Shown piece by piece: positions 395 to 5,535 of a DNA stretch of 48,186 nt (positions within the stretch are counted from its first letter, which is position 1; every line of letters starts with the position of its first letter). The notes under the pieces were generated by a model. The model saw nothing but the letters and a program-made list of their open reading frames with translations, was not told where the DNA came from and did no database searches. The position numbers were made by a program, and so were the translations under genes. This DNA is from Dysgonomonas sp. Marseille-P4677 (GTDB lineage: Bacteria > Bacteroidota > Bacteroidia > Bacteroidales > Dysgonomonadaceae). The stretch lies in contig NZ_JAEPKU010000017.1 of assembly GCF_016652235.1 (NCBI RefSeq), positions 1 to 48,186 of the forward strand, in the 5' to 3' direction.

Positions 395-3300
395 ATGAAG
401 AAAAGAGTGATGTTAATTCTATCCTGCTTATTTCTAAGCATAGGATTTATCGTAGCACAAACAACTAAGATCTCAGGTACTGTCGTTGATAGTAACGGAG
501 AGCCTGTTATTAGTGCTTCAGTGGTAGTCAAAGGGACTACAGTCGGTACAGTAACCGATTTGGATGGTAAATTTTCTATTAATGTGCCCAGTGGTAATAA
601 TACATTGGTATTTACATTGGTCGGGATGAAATCTGTAGAGGCTAGAGCAATCTCAGGTATGAATGTCGTTATGGAAAATGATGATAATATACTTGGAGAC
701 GTAGTGGTTACTGGCTATGGTGTAACAAAGAAGGCTGCGTTTGCAGGTGCGGCTTCAACTATTGGGCAGGCTAATATTGAAGCTAGAAATGATGCGAATG
801 CCATCAAATCTTTAGATGGTGTGGTTCCTGGTCTCCAAATGAATATTGGGTCAGGTCAGCCCGGAGCGCCTGCCAATGTTTTTATTCGTGGACGTAATTC
901 CATTAATTCAGGAACGCAACCCCTTTATGTTATTGATGGAATTCCTGTTTCATCGGATATAATGGGTACTAGAAAAGATGAAGGTCAGGAGTTGAGTCCT
1001 CTATCAACATTAAGTTCTAGTGATATTGAGAGTATTACAGTATTAAAGGATGCAACAGCAACATCTATTTATGGAGCTAGAGCAGCTAATGGAGTTATTG
1101 TAATTACTACCAAAAAAGGAAAAAGTGGAAAGCCTACGGTTAATTTCACAGCTAAACTTGGTTTTGAAACCCGTCCGGCTCAGAATAGTAGATATAAACT
1201 GGTTGATGCAACTAAAACTGTAGAACTAGCAAGAGAAGCAGCTCAGAATGCATATGACTTGTACGGATCTGATTCATCTGTTGATTATTATAATCAAGCG
1301 GTAGGTTTAGGATTGGATTATTCTAATCCAAACTGGACTTCAGATTTTTATTTGGCTTTTCTTACTCACCCTTATTTAGTTGGAGCGGACGCTAGTTATG
1401 CTAATAATACAAATTGGTATGATGAGGTGACCAGAACAGGGATGATACAAGAATATAATATTGATTTGTCGGGTGGTGCAGCTAATGCTACGGCTCCTAA
1501 ATATTATTTATCTTTTAATTACCTAAATAATGAATCTTTTATTATAGGTAAAGATCTGGAAAGATATTCTTTCCGTTTTAATTTCGATCAGGCTCCTACT
1601 AAGTTTGTTAAATACGGTTTGAATACAAACTTATCATTGACAGAAACAAATATGGGTGCTGGAGGTGGATATTATACAGATCCAATCACTCAAGCTTATA
1701 TGCAGTCTCCGTTAACTAATGTAAAGGACGAAAATGGAGAGTGGAATTTTGCTACTGTTAATGGATATAATCCTGTTGCTCAAAGAAGCAGTCTTGGGGA
1801 TATAAGTAGCCAAAAACAATATAGAGCAATTTTAGCTCCATATTTGCAATTGAACTTTACCGATGAATTAACTTTTACATCTAGATTTGGTGCTGATATT
1901 TATTATCTGGACGAATTTGGATATTGGTCTTTCTTACAACCTCAAGGTAAAGGTATGAGAGGTATGGGAGAGAATACTAATGCAACTAGAAATTTATTAA
2001 CTATCACAAATACGTTGAATTATATTAAAACATTTAAAGAAAAGCATAATTTGAATGTTTTATTAGGACAGGAAGGGCAAAGGACTTCTTCAAAAGAAGC
2101 TTATTTGGCTGGATCGAACTATCCTGTTGATTATCTAAACTCTGTGGATAATGCCGCTGTTCCGGGGTCAGCTTCAACTATTAAGAATGAATTGGTATTG
2201 AACTCTTATTTTACGAACGTTCAATATGATTATATGTCTAAATATTACCTGTCAGGAAGCTTCCGTTATGATGGATCTTCCCGTTTTGGAGCAGATAATA
2301 GATGGGCTCCTTTCTGGTCTGTGGGTGCAAAATATAGATTAACAGGAGAAGATTTTATGGCTTCTACGGCAGATTGGTTGAATAATGTAAATATTCGAGC
2401 AAGCTATGGTACAACAGGTAATCAAGAAGTTGGACGTATTGGTATGGACGGTTGGTATGCAGCTAACAATTTATTTGGGTTTGCATATAACTATAACGGA
2501 CTACCAGGAAGTGGACATCTTCAATTTGGTAACAGTAAATTGAAATGGGAGCAAACAAATAAATTTAATGTTGGTATAGATCTTGCTTTATTTAAATTCT
2601 TAAATATAGAACTAGATTATTACAATCATAAAACAACAGATATGGTGTTTGCAATCCCTACATCTTTTACAACTGGATTGAATTCATATTATAGCAATAT
2701 AGGTGAGTTGTCTAATAAAGGGGTTGAGGTAAGCGTTAGCGCCAATATTATAAATAATGCAGATCTTAAATGGAATGTTGTATTAACAGGTTCTCACAAT
2801 AAGAATAAGATAGAAAAATTAAGTACCGATAATCCAATTGAAACTACTACAACCATAAGAGAGGTAGGACGTCCATACTATACATTCAAAATGAAAGAGT
2901 GGGCCGGTGTTGATCCTGAAACAGGAGATGGACTGTGGTATCTTAATGAAGAAGGTGATGAAACCACAACAAACTATAATTTAGCTAAAAAGAGATATGT
3001 AGGTACTGGAGATCCGGATTTTATTGGATCTTTCAGCTCAAGATTGGAATGGAAAGGTTTTGATTTCGCTTTCCAATTGAATTATTCTGTTGGAGGTAAA
3101 GTGTATGGTAATAATTTACGTTACGATGAACAAGTTGGAGGAGCTTATACTCAAGGTTATACTCAGTATGTGTATGATAACCGTTGGCAAAAGCCGGGAG
3201 ATATAGCAGCAGTTCCAAGACTAACAGCATTGGATACAGGCTATGAAAATAGTGCATCTACTCGTTTCTTAATGGATGGAGATTATTTGAAAATCAGATC

Positions 3301-3511
3301 ATTGACATTAGGTTATACTTTGCCTAAAAGCTTATTAGCTAAAGCATTTATTAACAATGCTCGAGTTTTTGTAAATGCCGAAAATTTATACACATTCTCA
3401 GCTAGTAATTATAGAGGATTTGATCCTTCTGGAATTACAGCAGATGGTGTACAATGGTGGAATTTCCCTCTACCAAGAAGTGTTGTTTTTGGACTTACAT
3501 TAGGTTTTTAA
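395..3511 (+). CDS. SusC/RagA-type TonB-linked outer membrane transporter
   Basis: This TonB-dependent outer membrane channel imports oligosaccharides, peptides or other nutrients together with its SusD partner. The 1038-residue protein starts with a signal peptide ending near Ala21. A carboxypeptidase-regulatory-like domain follows (about 25-100, ISGTVVDSNGEPV...DGKF), then a TonB-box-like VVVTGYG stretch near 104, a plug domain (about 115-240, with VFIRGRNS and YVIDGIPV) and a long beta-barrel ending in the C-terminal Phe typical of BAM substrates. The ATG at 395 opens directly on the signal peptide. The susD gene lies 19 nt downstream, so they are surely cotranscribed. The substrate cannot be told: no glycoside hydrolase, peptidase or regulator lies downstream, and the upstream side is not visible. 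Confidence 0.96.
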   Translation: MKKRVMLILSCLFLSIGFIVAQTTKISGTVVDSNGEPVISASVVVKGTTVGTVTDLDGKFSINVPSGNNTLVFTLVGMKSVEARAISGMNVVMENDDNILGDVVVTGYGVTKKAAFAGAASTIGQANIEARNDANAIKSLDGVVPGLQMNIGSGQPGAPANVFIRGRNSINSGTQPLYVIDGIPVSSDIMGTRKDEGQELSPLSTLSSSDIESITVLKDATATSIYGARAANGVIVITTKKGKSGKPTVNFTAKLGFETRPAQNSRYKLVDATKTVELAREAAQNAYDLYGSDSSVDYYNQAVGLGLDYSNPNWTSDFYLAFLTHPYLVGADASYANNTNWYDEVTRTGMIQEYNIDLSGGAANATAPKYYLSFNYLNNESFIIGKDLERYSFRFNFDQAPTKFVKYGLNTNLSLTETNMGAGGGYYTDPITQAYMQSPLTNVKDENGEWNFATVNGYNPVAQRSSLGDISSQKQYRAILAPYLQLNFTDELTFTSRFGADIYYLDEFGYWSFLQPQGKGMRGMGENTNATRNLLTITNTLNYIKTFKEKHNLNVLLGQEGQRTSSKEAYLAGSNYPVDYLNSVDNAAVPGSASTIKNELVLNSYFTNVQYDYMSKYYLSGSFRYDGSSRFGADNRWAPFWSVGAKYRLTGEDFMASTADWLNNVNIRASYGTTGNQEVGRIGMDGWYAANNLFGFAYNYNGLPGSGHLQFGNSKLKWEQTNKFNVGIDLALFKFLNIELDYYNHKTTDMVFAIPTSFTTGLNSYYSNIGELSNKGVEVSVSANIINNADLKWNVVLTGSHNKNKIEKLSTDNPIETTTTIREVGRPYYTFKMKEWAGVDPETGDGLWYLNEEGDETTTNYNLAKKRYVGTGDPDFIGSFSSRLEWKGFDFAFQLNYSVGGKVYGNNLRYDEQVGGAYTQGYTQYVYDNRWQKPGDIAAVPRLTALDTGYENSASTRFLMDGDYLKIRSLTLGYTLPKSLLAKAFINNARVFVNAENLYTFSASNYRGFDPSGITADGVQWWNFPLPRSVVFGLTLGF

Positions 3512-3530
3512 TCAATAAAAAAGAATTCGC

Positions 3531-4973
3531 ATGAAAAAAATATATAAATATTTATTATTGTTTGCTGGGACTATGCTTCTGTCAACGTCTTGTAGTCTTG
3601 ATGTTGATAATTATCAGGATATTCCAACAGAAAAGGCTTACGAATCTGTACAAGATGTGCAAAACGGTATGATTGGAGCCTATTGGGCTTTAGGTACTTA
3701 TCGGTTTTATGGTAAAAATATTGTAGCTATAGGTGATATGGCTGCTGATGTATCTATTGGAAGCCCAAGCTCAGGCCATTATGCTAATTTCAGTAGGTAT
3801 GTTATTTCTGAAACAACTGCAGAGTTAGAGGAGACTTGGGAGTATGGTTATAAAGTAATTGATCGTACAACAAGAACTATTAATGGGGCCCAAAAAGTAT
3901 TAGCAGAAGTTCGTAATCTTACGGATGAGGAAAAAGCTTATATCGACCTTTATACATCACAATGTTATTCTCTAAGAGCCTTAGCTACTTTTAGTTTGGC
4001 TAATGTGTTTGCATTGCCATATCATGCGGGAACAGATAATCCTGGTGTTGTGTTAGTTGTTGATAAACCTATAGAGGCTTTCGAACAAGTAAAAAGAGCG
4101 ACCGTCGGTGAAACATATACACAGATATTAGCAGATATAAAACTTGCTAAAGATCATATGACTAAAGCTTTAGATGCTAATAATGATCCGGAAGCTACTT
4201 TCGGATTAGAATTACCTTCGGCATTTTATTTGAATGAAGCTGCTATATATGCGTTAGAAGCAAGAGTTTATTTGCATATGGGCAATTTGCCTGCAGCAAA
4301 AACTTCAGCTCAAAAAGCAATTGATCTGGCTGGAAATAAAGCAGTATCTAGTGAAGGATATGTTACAATGTGGTCTTCAATAGCTATTACCGATGAAGAT
4401 ATATTTACTATCAGTAAAACAGCAGATGATAATCTATCTGCAAATTCATTAAATACTTTATATGGGTCATATAAAGGAGCTGTGGTTTCAGGCTTTACTG
4501 ATAAATTTTTTACAAGTACAGATATTAGACTTAAACTAATAAATGGTACTCATCCAATGAAATTTGATGGAATACCTACATCAGAATCTGTAAGTAATAT
4601 TCCTGTATTTAGAAAATCAGAAATGCATTTAATTGTTGCAGAAGCGGAAGCCAATGCCGAAAATATCGAAGCAGCTCAAAAAGCCTTGTTTTATACGGCA
4701 AAAAGAGATGAAGCCATTACTGCGTATACACAATTACCTGCAACAAAAGCTGACTTGCTTACCTTTATTTCTAAAGAAAGAGTCCGTGAGTTTTTCCAAG
4801 AAGGATTAAGGTTTTATGATGCAAGACGTACAGGTGAATTGATTTCTGTAGCTGGTGGAACAAAACAGAATTTTGATGCATCTAAATTTGTATTTCCTAT
4901 ACCTGCAGATGAAGTAAACTCTGGTTTTGGTGTTCTTCAAAATGCTAATTGGTCGGCAGCTTTACCTAAATAA
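3531..4973 (+). CDS. SusD/RagB-type nutrient-binding lipoprotein
   Basis: This surface lipoprotein forms the lid of the SusC channel and binds the substrate. The 480-residue protein has a lipoprotein signal with lipobox STSC (lipidated Cys21), then a helical TPR-like body with the family's RALATFSLANVFALPY region near 143 and the C-terminal KERVREFFQEGLRFYDARR block near 415, which is diagnostic of RagB/SusD. It is somewhat shorter than many members (500-600 residues), fitting the small RagB-like subgroup. It is translated from the same message as the SusC gene and is followed 23 nt later by a strong terminator, so the unit visible here is only susC-susD. Confidence 0.95.
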   Translation: MKKIYKYLLLFAGTMLLSTSCSLDVDNYQDIPTEKAYESVQDVQNGMIGAYWALGTYRFYGKNIVAIGDMAADVSIGSPSSGHYANFSRYVISETTAELEETWEYGYKVIDRTTRTINGAQKVLAEVRNLTDEEKAYIDLYTSQCYSLRALATFSLANVFALPYHAGTDNPGVVLVVDKPIEAFEQVKRATVGETYTQILADIKLAKDHMTKALDANNDPEATFGLELPSAFYLNEAAIYALEARVYLHMGNLPAAKTSAQKAIDLAGNKAVSSEGYVTMWSSIAITDEDIFTISKTADDNLSANSLNTLYGSYKGAVVSGFTDKFFTSTDIRLKLINGTHPMKFDGIPTSESVSNIPVFRKSEMHLIVAEAEANAENIEAAQKALFYTAKRDEAITAYTQLPATKADLLTFISKERVREFFQEGLRFYDARRTGELISVAGGTKQNFDASKFVFPIPADEVNSGFGVLQNANWSAALPK

Positions 4974-4996
4974 AATAAGTTGATAAAATAGAAAAA

Positions 4997-5030
4997 CTCC
5001 AAGTCTAAAAACTTGGAGCTTTTTATTTCT
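4997..5030 (+). terminator. Intrinsic terminator after susD
   Basis: An 8-bp perfect stem (4997-5004 with 5011-5018), 6-nt loop, then CTTTTTATTTCTTTT. It closes the susC-susD transcript. Confidence 0.9.
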
Positions 5031-5096: not shown

Positions 5097-5255
5097 ATGT
5101 ATCAAGAAATAATTGTAGGAATCATTGGAGTATCTGTAGCTCTTTTAGTTATATATAAAGTGTATGGATTCTTCTTTTCCAAAAATGAACAAAAGGGCAG
5201 CTGTGGATGTTCCAATTGTGGATGCAGTACAAAGAGTAAGTCGGTTAAATACTAA
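5097..5255 (+). CDS. FeoB-associated-type Cys-rich membrane peptide
   Basis: A 52-residue protein with a strong ribosome site (AAAGGAGAG, 5085-5093) four bases before its ATG. Residues 5-28 form one membrane helix (EIIVGIIGVSVALLVIYKVY), and the tail carries SCGCSNCGCS with four Cys near 36-43, then a Lys-rich end. This layout, a single helix followed by a CGC..CGC cluster, is that of the FeoB-associated Cys-rich membrane proteins, which usually follow the ferrous iron transporter gene feoB and may bind iron or metal. Here no feoB is near; the gene stands alone between the susD terminator and an RNA gene. The family call rests on layout and Cys pattern; the function of the family is not settled. 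Confidence 0.72.
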   Translation: MYQEIIVGIIGVSVALLVIYKVYGFFFSKNEQKGSCGCSNCGCSTKSKSVKY

Positions 5256-5261
5256 AAAATA

Positions 5262-5293
5262 TTTGTACATTCCGATTATTCTATCTATATTTG
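5262..5293 (+). promoter_or_regulatory. Promoter of the structured RNA gene
   Basis: TTTG (5262-5265), 20 nt, then TATATTTG (5286-5293): an exact match to the primary sigma factor promoter of Bacteroidetes (-33 TTTG, -7 TAnnTTTG). Transcription should begin at about 5298-5303, in front of a sequence with no credible start codon. Confidence 0.85.
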
Positions 5294-5299
5294 AAATAG

Positions 5300-5535
5300 A
5301 AATAAAAAGCTAGTTTAAGTCGTGTTGGTCGATTGGGAAGCTCATCAATTAATAAAATAACCGAGACAAGCTTTTGATTCTAATGGCGGGCCACACCTTC
5401 GGGTTGCTTAGCACGGTGGATTACAAAGGGATCGAGGCACTCAAATCCTGTTTTACGGAGTTTCGGCTATATCCACCAATACGACTTTAATATACAAAGG
5501 GAGATATTCATGGGAGTATCTCCCTTTTGGTTTTC
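5300..5535 (+). ncRNA. Free-standing structured RNA, 6S-like rod fold
   Basis: Between a consensus promoter and a terminator lies a G+C-richer segment that folds as one long rod. A 13-bp closing stem pairs 5317-5329 with 5475-5487 (one G-U). A second stem pairs CCGAGAC (5361-5367) with GTTTCGG (5460-5466), a third TTGATTC (5374-5380) with GGATCGA (5429-5435), a fourth TAAT (5381-5384) with ATTA (5420-5423), and CCAC (5391-5394) pairs with GTGG (5416-5419) above a hairpin with UUCG loop (5395-5404). Between the closing stem and the second stem is a large asymmetric internal loop (5330-5360 against 5467-5474). A rod of about 170 nt with an open bubble recalls 6S RNA, the RNA polymerase-binding regulator, and that is my leading guess. 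I do not recognise the primary sequence, and other Bacteroidetes RNA families are possible. It does not look like SRP RNA, tmRNA or RNase P RNA. The RNA gene itself is more certain than the family. Confidence 0.7.
5496..5535 (+). terminator. Intrinsic terminator of the RNA gene
   Basis: GGGAGATA (5499-5506) pairs with TATCTCCC (5517-5524), followed by TTTTGGTTTT. It lies 9 nt after the closing stem of the RNA, as expected for an independently transcribed small RNA. Confidence 0.85.

Follow-up and report, generated by a model that had tools for sequence, protein, structure and literature searches.

A free-standing Bacteroidales-1 locus in Dysgonomonas, very probably the genome's single 6S RNA gene, and its zapA-linked relatives

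6S RNA is a small RNA thought to restrain RNA polymerase as growth slows. Its canonical form, ssrS (Rfam RF00013), is a rod with a closing stem and a central bubble, an outline that it has in common with the RNA described here. According to the available part of PMC7641849, ssrS lies always immediately behind zapA in the beta- and gamma-proteobacterial operons described in 2020, while the adjacency does not hold in alpha-proteobacteria; many relatives of the present RNA are placed in the same way, whereas loci of its own type are not (0 of 59 beside zapA). The closest described families are 6S-Flavo (RF01685) and Bacteroidales-1 (RF01693), the latter a motif published in 2010 as a candidate RNA of Bacteroidales (available part of PMC2864571) and described in Rfam with the words "6S-Bacteroidales RNA suggested". 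For Bacteroides thetaiotaomicron, a 6S RNA together with two classes of pRNA was detected by dRNA-seq in work whose main text has 0 occurrences of the name Bacteroidales-1 (PMC7366714). Since the genus Bacteroides carries RF01693, which was present in our control Bacteroides ihuae, we tie those published pRNAs to RF01693 by name and genus.

The window, the whole stretch of 48,186 bases from Dysgonomonas sp. Marseille-P4677 that we analysed, gave a match to RF01693 at 5318-5492 in a scan with all of Rfam, which scored 141.6 bits where 60 is the cut-off (E 7.6e-24) and extended over the complete model, 1-179. No other family, SRP RNA included, reached its curated cut-off within the window, and weak matches to sraA, DapZ, cow-rumen-2 and mir-1545, all far under their respective cut-offs, were taken as chance. 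Our own model R1, built from 61 Bacteroidales sequences, scored 168.2 bits at 5312-5494; RF01693 matched one copy in the genome of the window, in which R1 detected no second copy at E up to 1. As a gene it is unremarkable, and its family is already known. An earlier note on this DNA was right to describe a structured RNA gene that stands by itself and has a 6S-like fold, in which promoter, non-coding segment and terminator stand in order (5262-5293, the stretch between, and 5496-5527). Its statements that the sequence was unrecognised and independent of known gene families, and that it could be a new lineage-specific family, are wrong in view of RF01693, which the note itself had named among its checks: of the covariance models it proposed, Bacteroidales-1 matched, 6S-Flavo stayed below its cut-off, and neither RF00013 nor SRP RNA gave a match at cut-off. 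The features, all on the + strand, are as follows.

5262-5293, +, Bacteroidetes-type promoter, TTTG at 5262-5265 and TATATTTG at 5286-5293 (sequence; TAnnTTTG recurs in relatives)
5317-5329, +, closing stem P1, 5′ strand (sequence; covariation)
5318-5492, +, 6S RNA, very probably; Rfam RF01693 Bacteroidales-1 (141.6 bits; R1 168.2 bits at 5312-5494)
5331-5350, +, predicted pRNA template, 5′ strand beside and within the bubble (analogy; near-invariant AAACUC core in 98 sequences)
5337-5343, +, helix P2, 5′ strand, GAAGCUC here, GAAACUC in most (alignment)
5344-5362, +, central bubble, 5′ strand, A+U rich (alignment)
5363-5365, +, helix P3, 5′ strand, GAG (alignment)
5382-5391, +, conserved apical motif AATGGCGGGC, of which ATGGCGGG is invariant in 61 aligned sequences
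5395-5404, +, UUCG-capped tip ACCUUCGGGU, UUCG at 5398-5401 (sequence)
5440-5442, +, helix P3, 3′ strand, CUC (alignment)
5443-5457, +, central bubble, 3′ strand (alignment)
5458-5464, +, helix P2, 3′ strand, GAGUUUC (alignment)
5475-5487, +, closing stem P1, 3′ strand (sequence; covariation)
5496-5527, +, intrinsic terminator hairpin, 14 pairs, loop of 4, T-rich tail behind (sequence; separate hairpin also in 60 of 82 unlinked Bacteroidales loci)

Within 5262-5535, TTTG-N20-TATATTTG is followed by the structured stretch and then by the terminator hairpin, and by the promoter spacing rule the transcript presumably starts near 5300. Sites of this promoter type number 5 in the window against 2.3 expected by shuffling, so a single site is weak when taken alone; but of the 82 Bacteroidales loci not linked to zapA, 74 have TAnnTTTG no more than about 100 nt upstream (5.7 expected over all 87 unlinked loci). 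Among 73 listed loci, 70 have TTG at the -33 spacing, a count without a shuffle control. The fold energy of 5290-5535, terminator included, corresponds to z = -3.8, with 1 of 200 shuffles equally good. There is no convincing reading frame within the segment: the longest sense ORF wholly inside it (ATG, GTG or TTG start, at least 20 aa) has 38 aa (5374-5490), and its frame is broken by indels in relatives.

Relatives came from a search of 393 genomes of the order with RF01693 under stricter filters, in which 106 matched with E no higher than 0.001, 76 of them above the cut-off; 91 loci were used from the matching genomes, window included, the other 15 all being below the cut-off. Because only 6 to 18 candidates were scored per genome, absence in these large genome searches is weak evidence. 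The first alignment (n = 61) joined the window copy with the 60 best other loci and was made without structure, while the second, of 98 sequences, was fitted to a model that holds P2 and P3 and is therefore biased towards that structure. Outside the larger alignment stand one locus cut by a contig end (L069), two near copies of L020 (L021 and L022) and ten Flavo loci (L100-L109) examined for zapA and rny only. Among the matches listed, L151, titled Lachnoclostridium sp. (MAG), has the Bacteroidales 6S pattern; the record is probably misnamed or mixed.

The closing stem and the UUCG-capped tip (5398-5401) are as the earlier note had drawn them, and the stem, whose loss in related genomes the note would have counted against its reading, is kept there with compensatory changes. 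P1 comprises 13 pairs including one G-U, and in either alignment all nine modelled pairs (5318-5326 with 5478-5486) vary on both sides, with 98.2% of cells paired in the 61 sequences and 96.9% in the 98. The large bubble of the note is present, but the extent claimed for it holds two conserved helices that the note overlooked, P2 (5337-5343 paired to 5458-5464) and P3 (5363-5365 paired to 5440-5442), which frame the central bubble as in 6S RNA. Cells of P2 are paired in 97.1% (98 sequences, model-fitted) and 96.5% (61 aligned without structure), those of P3 in 99.7% and 100%, respectively. Compensatory changes occur at the variable pairs of both helices in the 98 sequences: the outermost pair of P2 is found as G-C, U-A, A-U or C-G (unpaired there in 18 of 98), and the middle pair of P3 changes from A-U to G-C in 15 of 98. 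The core of P2 is nearly invariant, so covariation cannot test it and says little about it. Just outside this core, pairing judged from the sequence flanks alone averaged 1.27 against 0.83 and was higher than in any of 2000 rounds in which the 98 sequences were re-paired at random, a control that ignores kinship. For the whole structure, 95.9% of cells in the 61 sequences held standard pairs, compared with 86.3% in shuffles and 37-48% when partners were slid by 1-3 columns; over both alignments the range was 94-96% against 33-50% for the slid controls. Thermodynamic folding returned P1 in 98 of 98 sequences and P2 in 44 of 98, with a P2 probability of 0.15 in the window. The window copy matches RF01693 over its full length, but the Rfam consensus line pairs the apical arm only, so that P1, P2 and P3 as counted here extend the structure given for that family.

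RF01685 matched 21 of 198 genomes of the phylum, nine of them above the cut-off, and 20 loci were taken, G429 being the 21st genome, without a locus. R1 matched all 20 fetched 6S-Flavo loci at the RF01685 site (E 2e-11 to 2e-4), with one additional stray match at E 0.011; run genome-wide in the phylum under stricter filters, it found 16 of the 21 RF01685-positive genomes and missed five. RF01685 itself stayed under its cut-off in the window (21.7 bits against 85). RF00013 had no match in the genome of the window at E up to 1, was not among the matches of the window region at E up to 10, and matched 6 of 14 controls. Taken together, the matches of R1 to the Flavo loci and the failure of RF00013 indicate a relative of 6S-Flavo that is a 6S RNA by anatomy, and not a member of RF00013 as modelled. 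The AAACUC/GAGUUU helix, the bubble and the closing stem are common to 6S-Flavo and the window RNA; the loci differ in that those of 6S-Flavo lie behind zapA and have TAnnTTTG within 70 nt upstream in 0 of 10 scanned.

A second model, R2, was built from the 98 sequences and run on 37 genomes previously without a match (except G429, with its weak RF01685 match), namely 19 of the order and 18 others of the class, which were the heads of the no-match lists and not a random sample (G015 was skipped for its R1 match). At E up to 0.01, R2 detected the RNA in 18 of the 19 order genomes (L230-L250), the one miss being a genome 61% complete, and in 4 of the 18 other genomes of the class, one of which had a second match that looks like chance (L252, 28 bits). 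On the same 19 genomes, RF01693 was rerun under laxer filters similar to those for R2, with up to 82 candidates scored per genome; it gave a single match (E 0.008, 28 bits) and reached its cut-off in 0 of 19. No Rfam family was at cut-off in the 18 Bacteroidales loci found with R2. Two class-level loci of one family (L240 and L245, f128) have a 6S-like match with no zapA upstream.

Considering the genes on either side, zapA lies directly upstream in 17 of the 18 Bacteroidales loci found with R2, the exception being 146 nt from a contig end, in one class locus (L251), in 20 of 20 Flavo loci (10 of 10 in the alignment and ten others) and in 6 of 29 diverged Bacteroidales loci, and in none of the 59 window-type loci examined. 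RNase Y is downstream in 9 of 10 aligned Flavo loci, 6 of 29 diverged Bacteroidales loci and 15 of 23 loci found with R2; in the remaining ten Flavo loci, ZapA and RNase Y are placed as in the aligned ones. PF05164 matched 4 of 4 ZapA frames tested, NCBIfam named 0 of 2, and TIGR03319 identified one downstream frame as RNase Y. Among titles and abstract openings in a partial literature collection, we found no report of a zapA or RNase Y linkage of 6S RNA in the phylum.

Several lines of evidence, namely the RF01693 match, the conservation of P1, P2 and P3, the R1 matches to 6S-Flavo loci, the zapA neighbourhood in relatives and the pRNAs of B. thetaiotaomicron, argue that 5262-5535 is very probably the genome's single 6S RNA gene, with its own housekeeping promoter and an intrinsic terminator, whose product is predicted to act as a decoy for RNA polymerase. 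The RNA would fold as a rod in which P1 and P2 lead to an A+U-rich central bubble, beyond which come P3 and a conserved apical arm, and would bind the housekeeping RNA polymerase holoenzyme by mimicking an open promoter. When nucleotides return, the polymerase may copy a short pRNA from the 5′ strand beside the bubble, at about 5331-5350, where we place the template on the assumption that it corresponds to that of E. coli 6S RNA; synthesis of this pRNA would open P2 and so release the polymerase. For the 3′ strand, a pRNA-driven release hairpin AAAUCC/GGA(G)UUU, first picked out by eye, is a guess: one of its pairs changes from U-A to C-G in 4 of 98 sequences and is unpaired in 24 of 98, and folding predicts the hairpin for 11 of 98 when the template is blocked and for 3 of 98 when it is free.

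Could the RNA instead serve as a leader or cis-regulator of downstream pyrE? That gene is on the same strand, 161 nt past the model match, and in the window's genus the RNA is followed by pyrE and then argH. However, pyrE comes next in only 4 of 98 loci (each spanning 1.9-4.8 kb), all four of the window's genus, a terminator stands between RNA and gene, and the RNA is conserved where neighbouring genes differ; we rejected a pyrE leader on this linkage count and hold any such role to be very unlikely. A new, unrelated lineage-specific structured RNA could be argued from the weak 6S-Flavo score (21.7 bits, cut-off 85), yet it is refuted by a score of 141.6 bits against 60 for RF01693 in a match that spans the whole model, and R1 matches 20 of the 20 fetched 6S-Flavo loci, which leaves next to no probability for an unrelated origin.

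The remaining alternative accepts descent from 6S RNA but supposes another action in this lineage, for example through the very conserved apical motif AAUGGCGGGCC, which is largely invariant while the pairs below it vary; the failure of RF00013 on the genome of the window likewise counts against a 6S function. Against this stand both helices P2 and P3, the bubble between them and the ancestry beside zapA, all of which are those of 6S RNA, as well as the pRNAs reported in B. thetaiotaomicron (available part of PMC7366714), and we judge a change of action improbable.

The upstream and downstream signals divide the loci into two types. TAnnTTTG within about 100 nt is found in 1 of 34 zapA-linked loci (1.5 expected), compared with the 74 of 82 unlinked Bacteroidales loci given above; conversely, GTTCTTT within about 60 nt is found in 22 of 34 zapA-linked loci (0.15 expected) versus 2 of 82 unlinked ones, all motif expectations being from mononucleotide shuffles. 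A U-run right behind the closing stem is present in 34 of 34 zapA-linked and 40 of 82 unlinked Bacteroidales loci, and a separate terminator hairpin in 3 of 34 and 60 of 82, respectively. Ahead of 16S rRNA, GTTCTTT lies within 600 nt in 4 of 10 genomes (0.5 expected), from a set of 26 full-length 16S loci of which many are from the same genomes, and an GTTCTTTGAA-like element in the 16S rRNA leaders L282, L284 and L286 resembles that before zapA-linked 6S genes. We suggest from these motifs that the GTTCTTT or GTTCTTTGAA-like element may be boxA, and leave it at a suggestion because GTTCTTT precedes 16S rRNA in just 4 of the 10 genomes.

We inspected the old zapA-rny site in 24 unlinked-type genomes with RNase Y over cut-off. 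In 23 of 24, zapA still precedes rny in the same orientation, no more than 209 nt away (a distance taken to where the frame opens and not to the start codon), and the 6S model had no match better than E 0.11 in these 24 loci. The genome of the window has no RNase Y over cut-off and gave no match with one remote ZapA as query, although such a query shows nothing on absence; the shortfall is perhaps an assembly gap. As this assembly offers no readable zapA-rny site, the site was read in two genomes of the window's genus (L265 and L267), in which zapA and RNase Y are both present.

Judging by these arrangements in sequence, the older home of the gene in Bacteroidota was probably a zapA-6S-rny operon, with no TAnnTTTG of its own, often GTTCTTT before it, and a closing stem running into a U-tract terminator, from which the lineage of the window would have moved out to a free-standing locus with a housekeeping promoter and a separate terminator. 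The direction, from operon to free-standing, is judged from the wider spread of the zapA link, and the gene may have moved once or several times. If this is true, 6S control would no longer work by read-through of a cell-division operon but by competing directly with other housekeeping promoters, and a natural experiment suggests itself, in which the same RNA is governed by an operon in one branch and by a promoter of its own in the other. Since Rfam detects chiefly the derived branch and the flavobacteria, and not the Bacteroidales operon type, 6S RNA looks patchy although it may be near-universal in the order. The comparison exposes a zapA-linked Bacteroidales 6S type undetected by Rfam, ties Bacteroidales-1 to 6S-Flavo, gives the Bacteroidales 6S RNA a covariation-supported closing stem and a bubble frame beyond the Rfam consensus, and offers zapA as a neighbour common to these loci and proteobacterial ssrS.

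Elsewhere in the window, just before the 6S promoter, a 52-aa frame (5097-5255) has one membrane stretch and a Cys-rich tail; it is reminiscent of FeoB-associated Cys-rich proteins, but neither Pfam nor NCBIfam gave a match at E up to 0.001. Further upstream, 395-4973 holds what are presumably a SusC-like and a SusD-like gene as a pair, behind which a terminator-like hairpin (4992-5023) reads in both directions.
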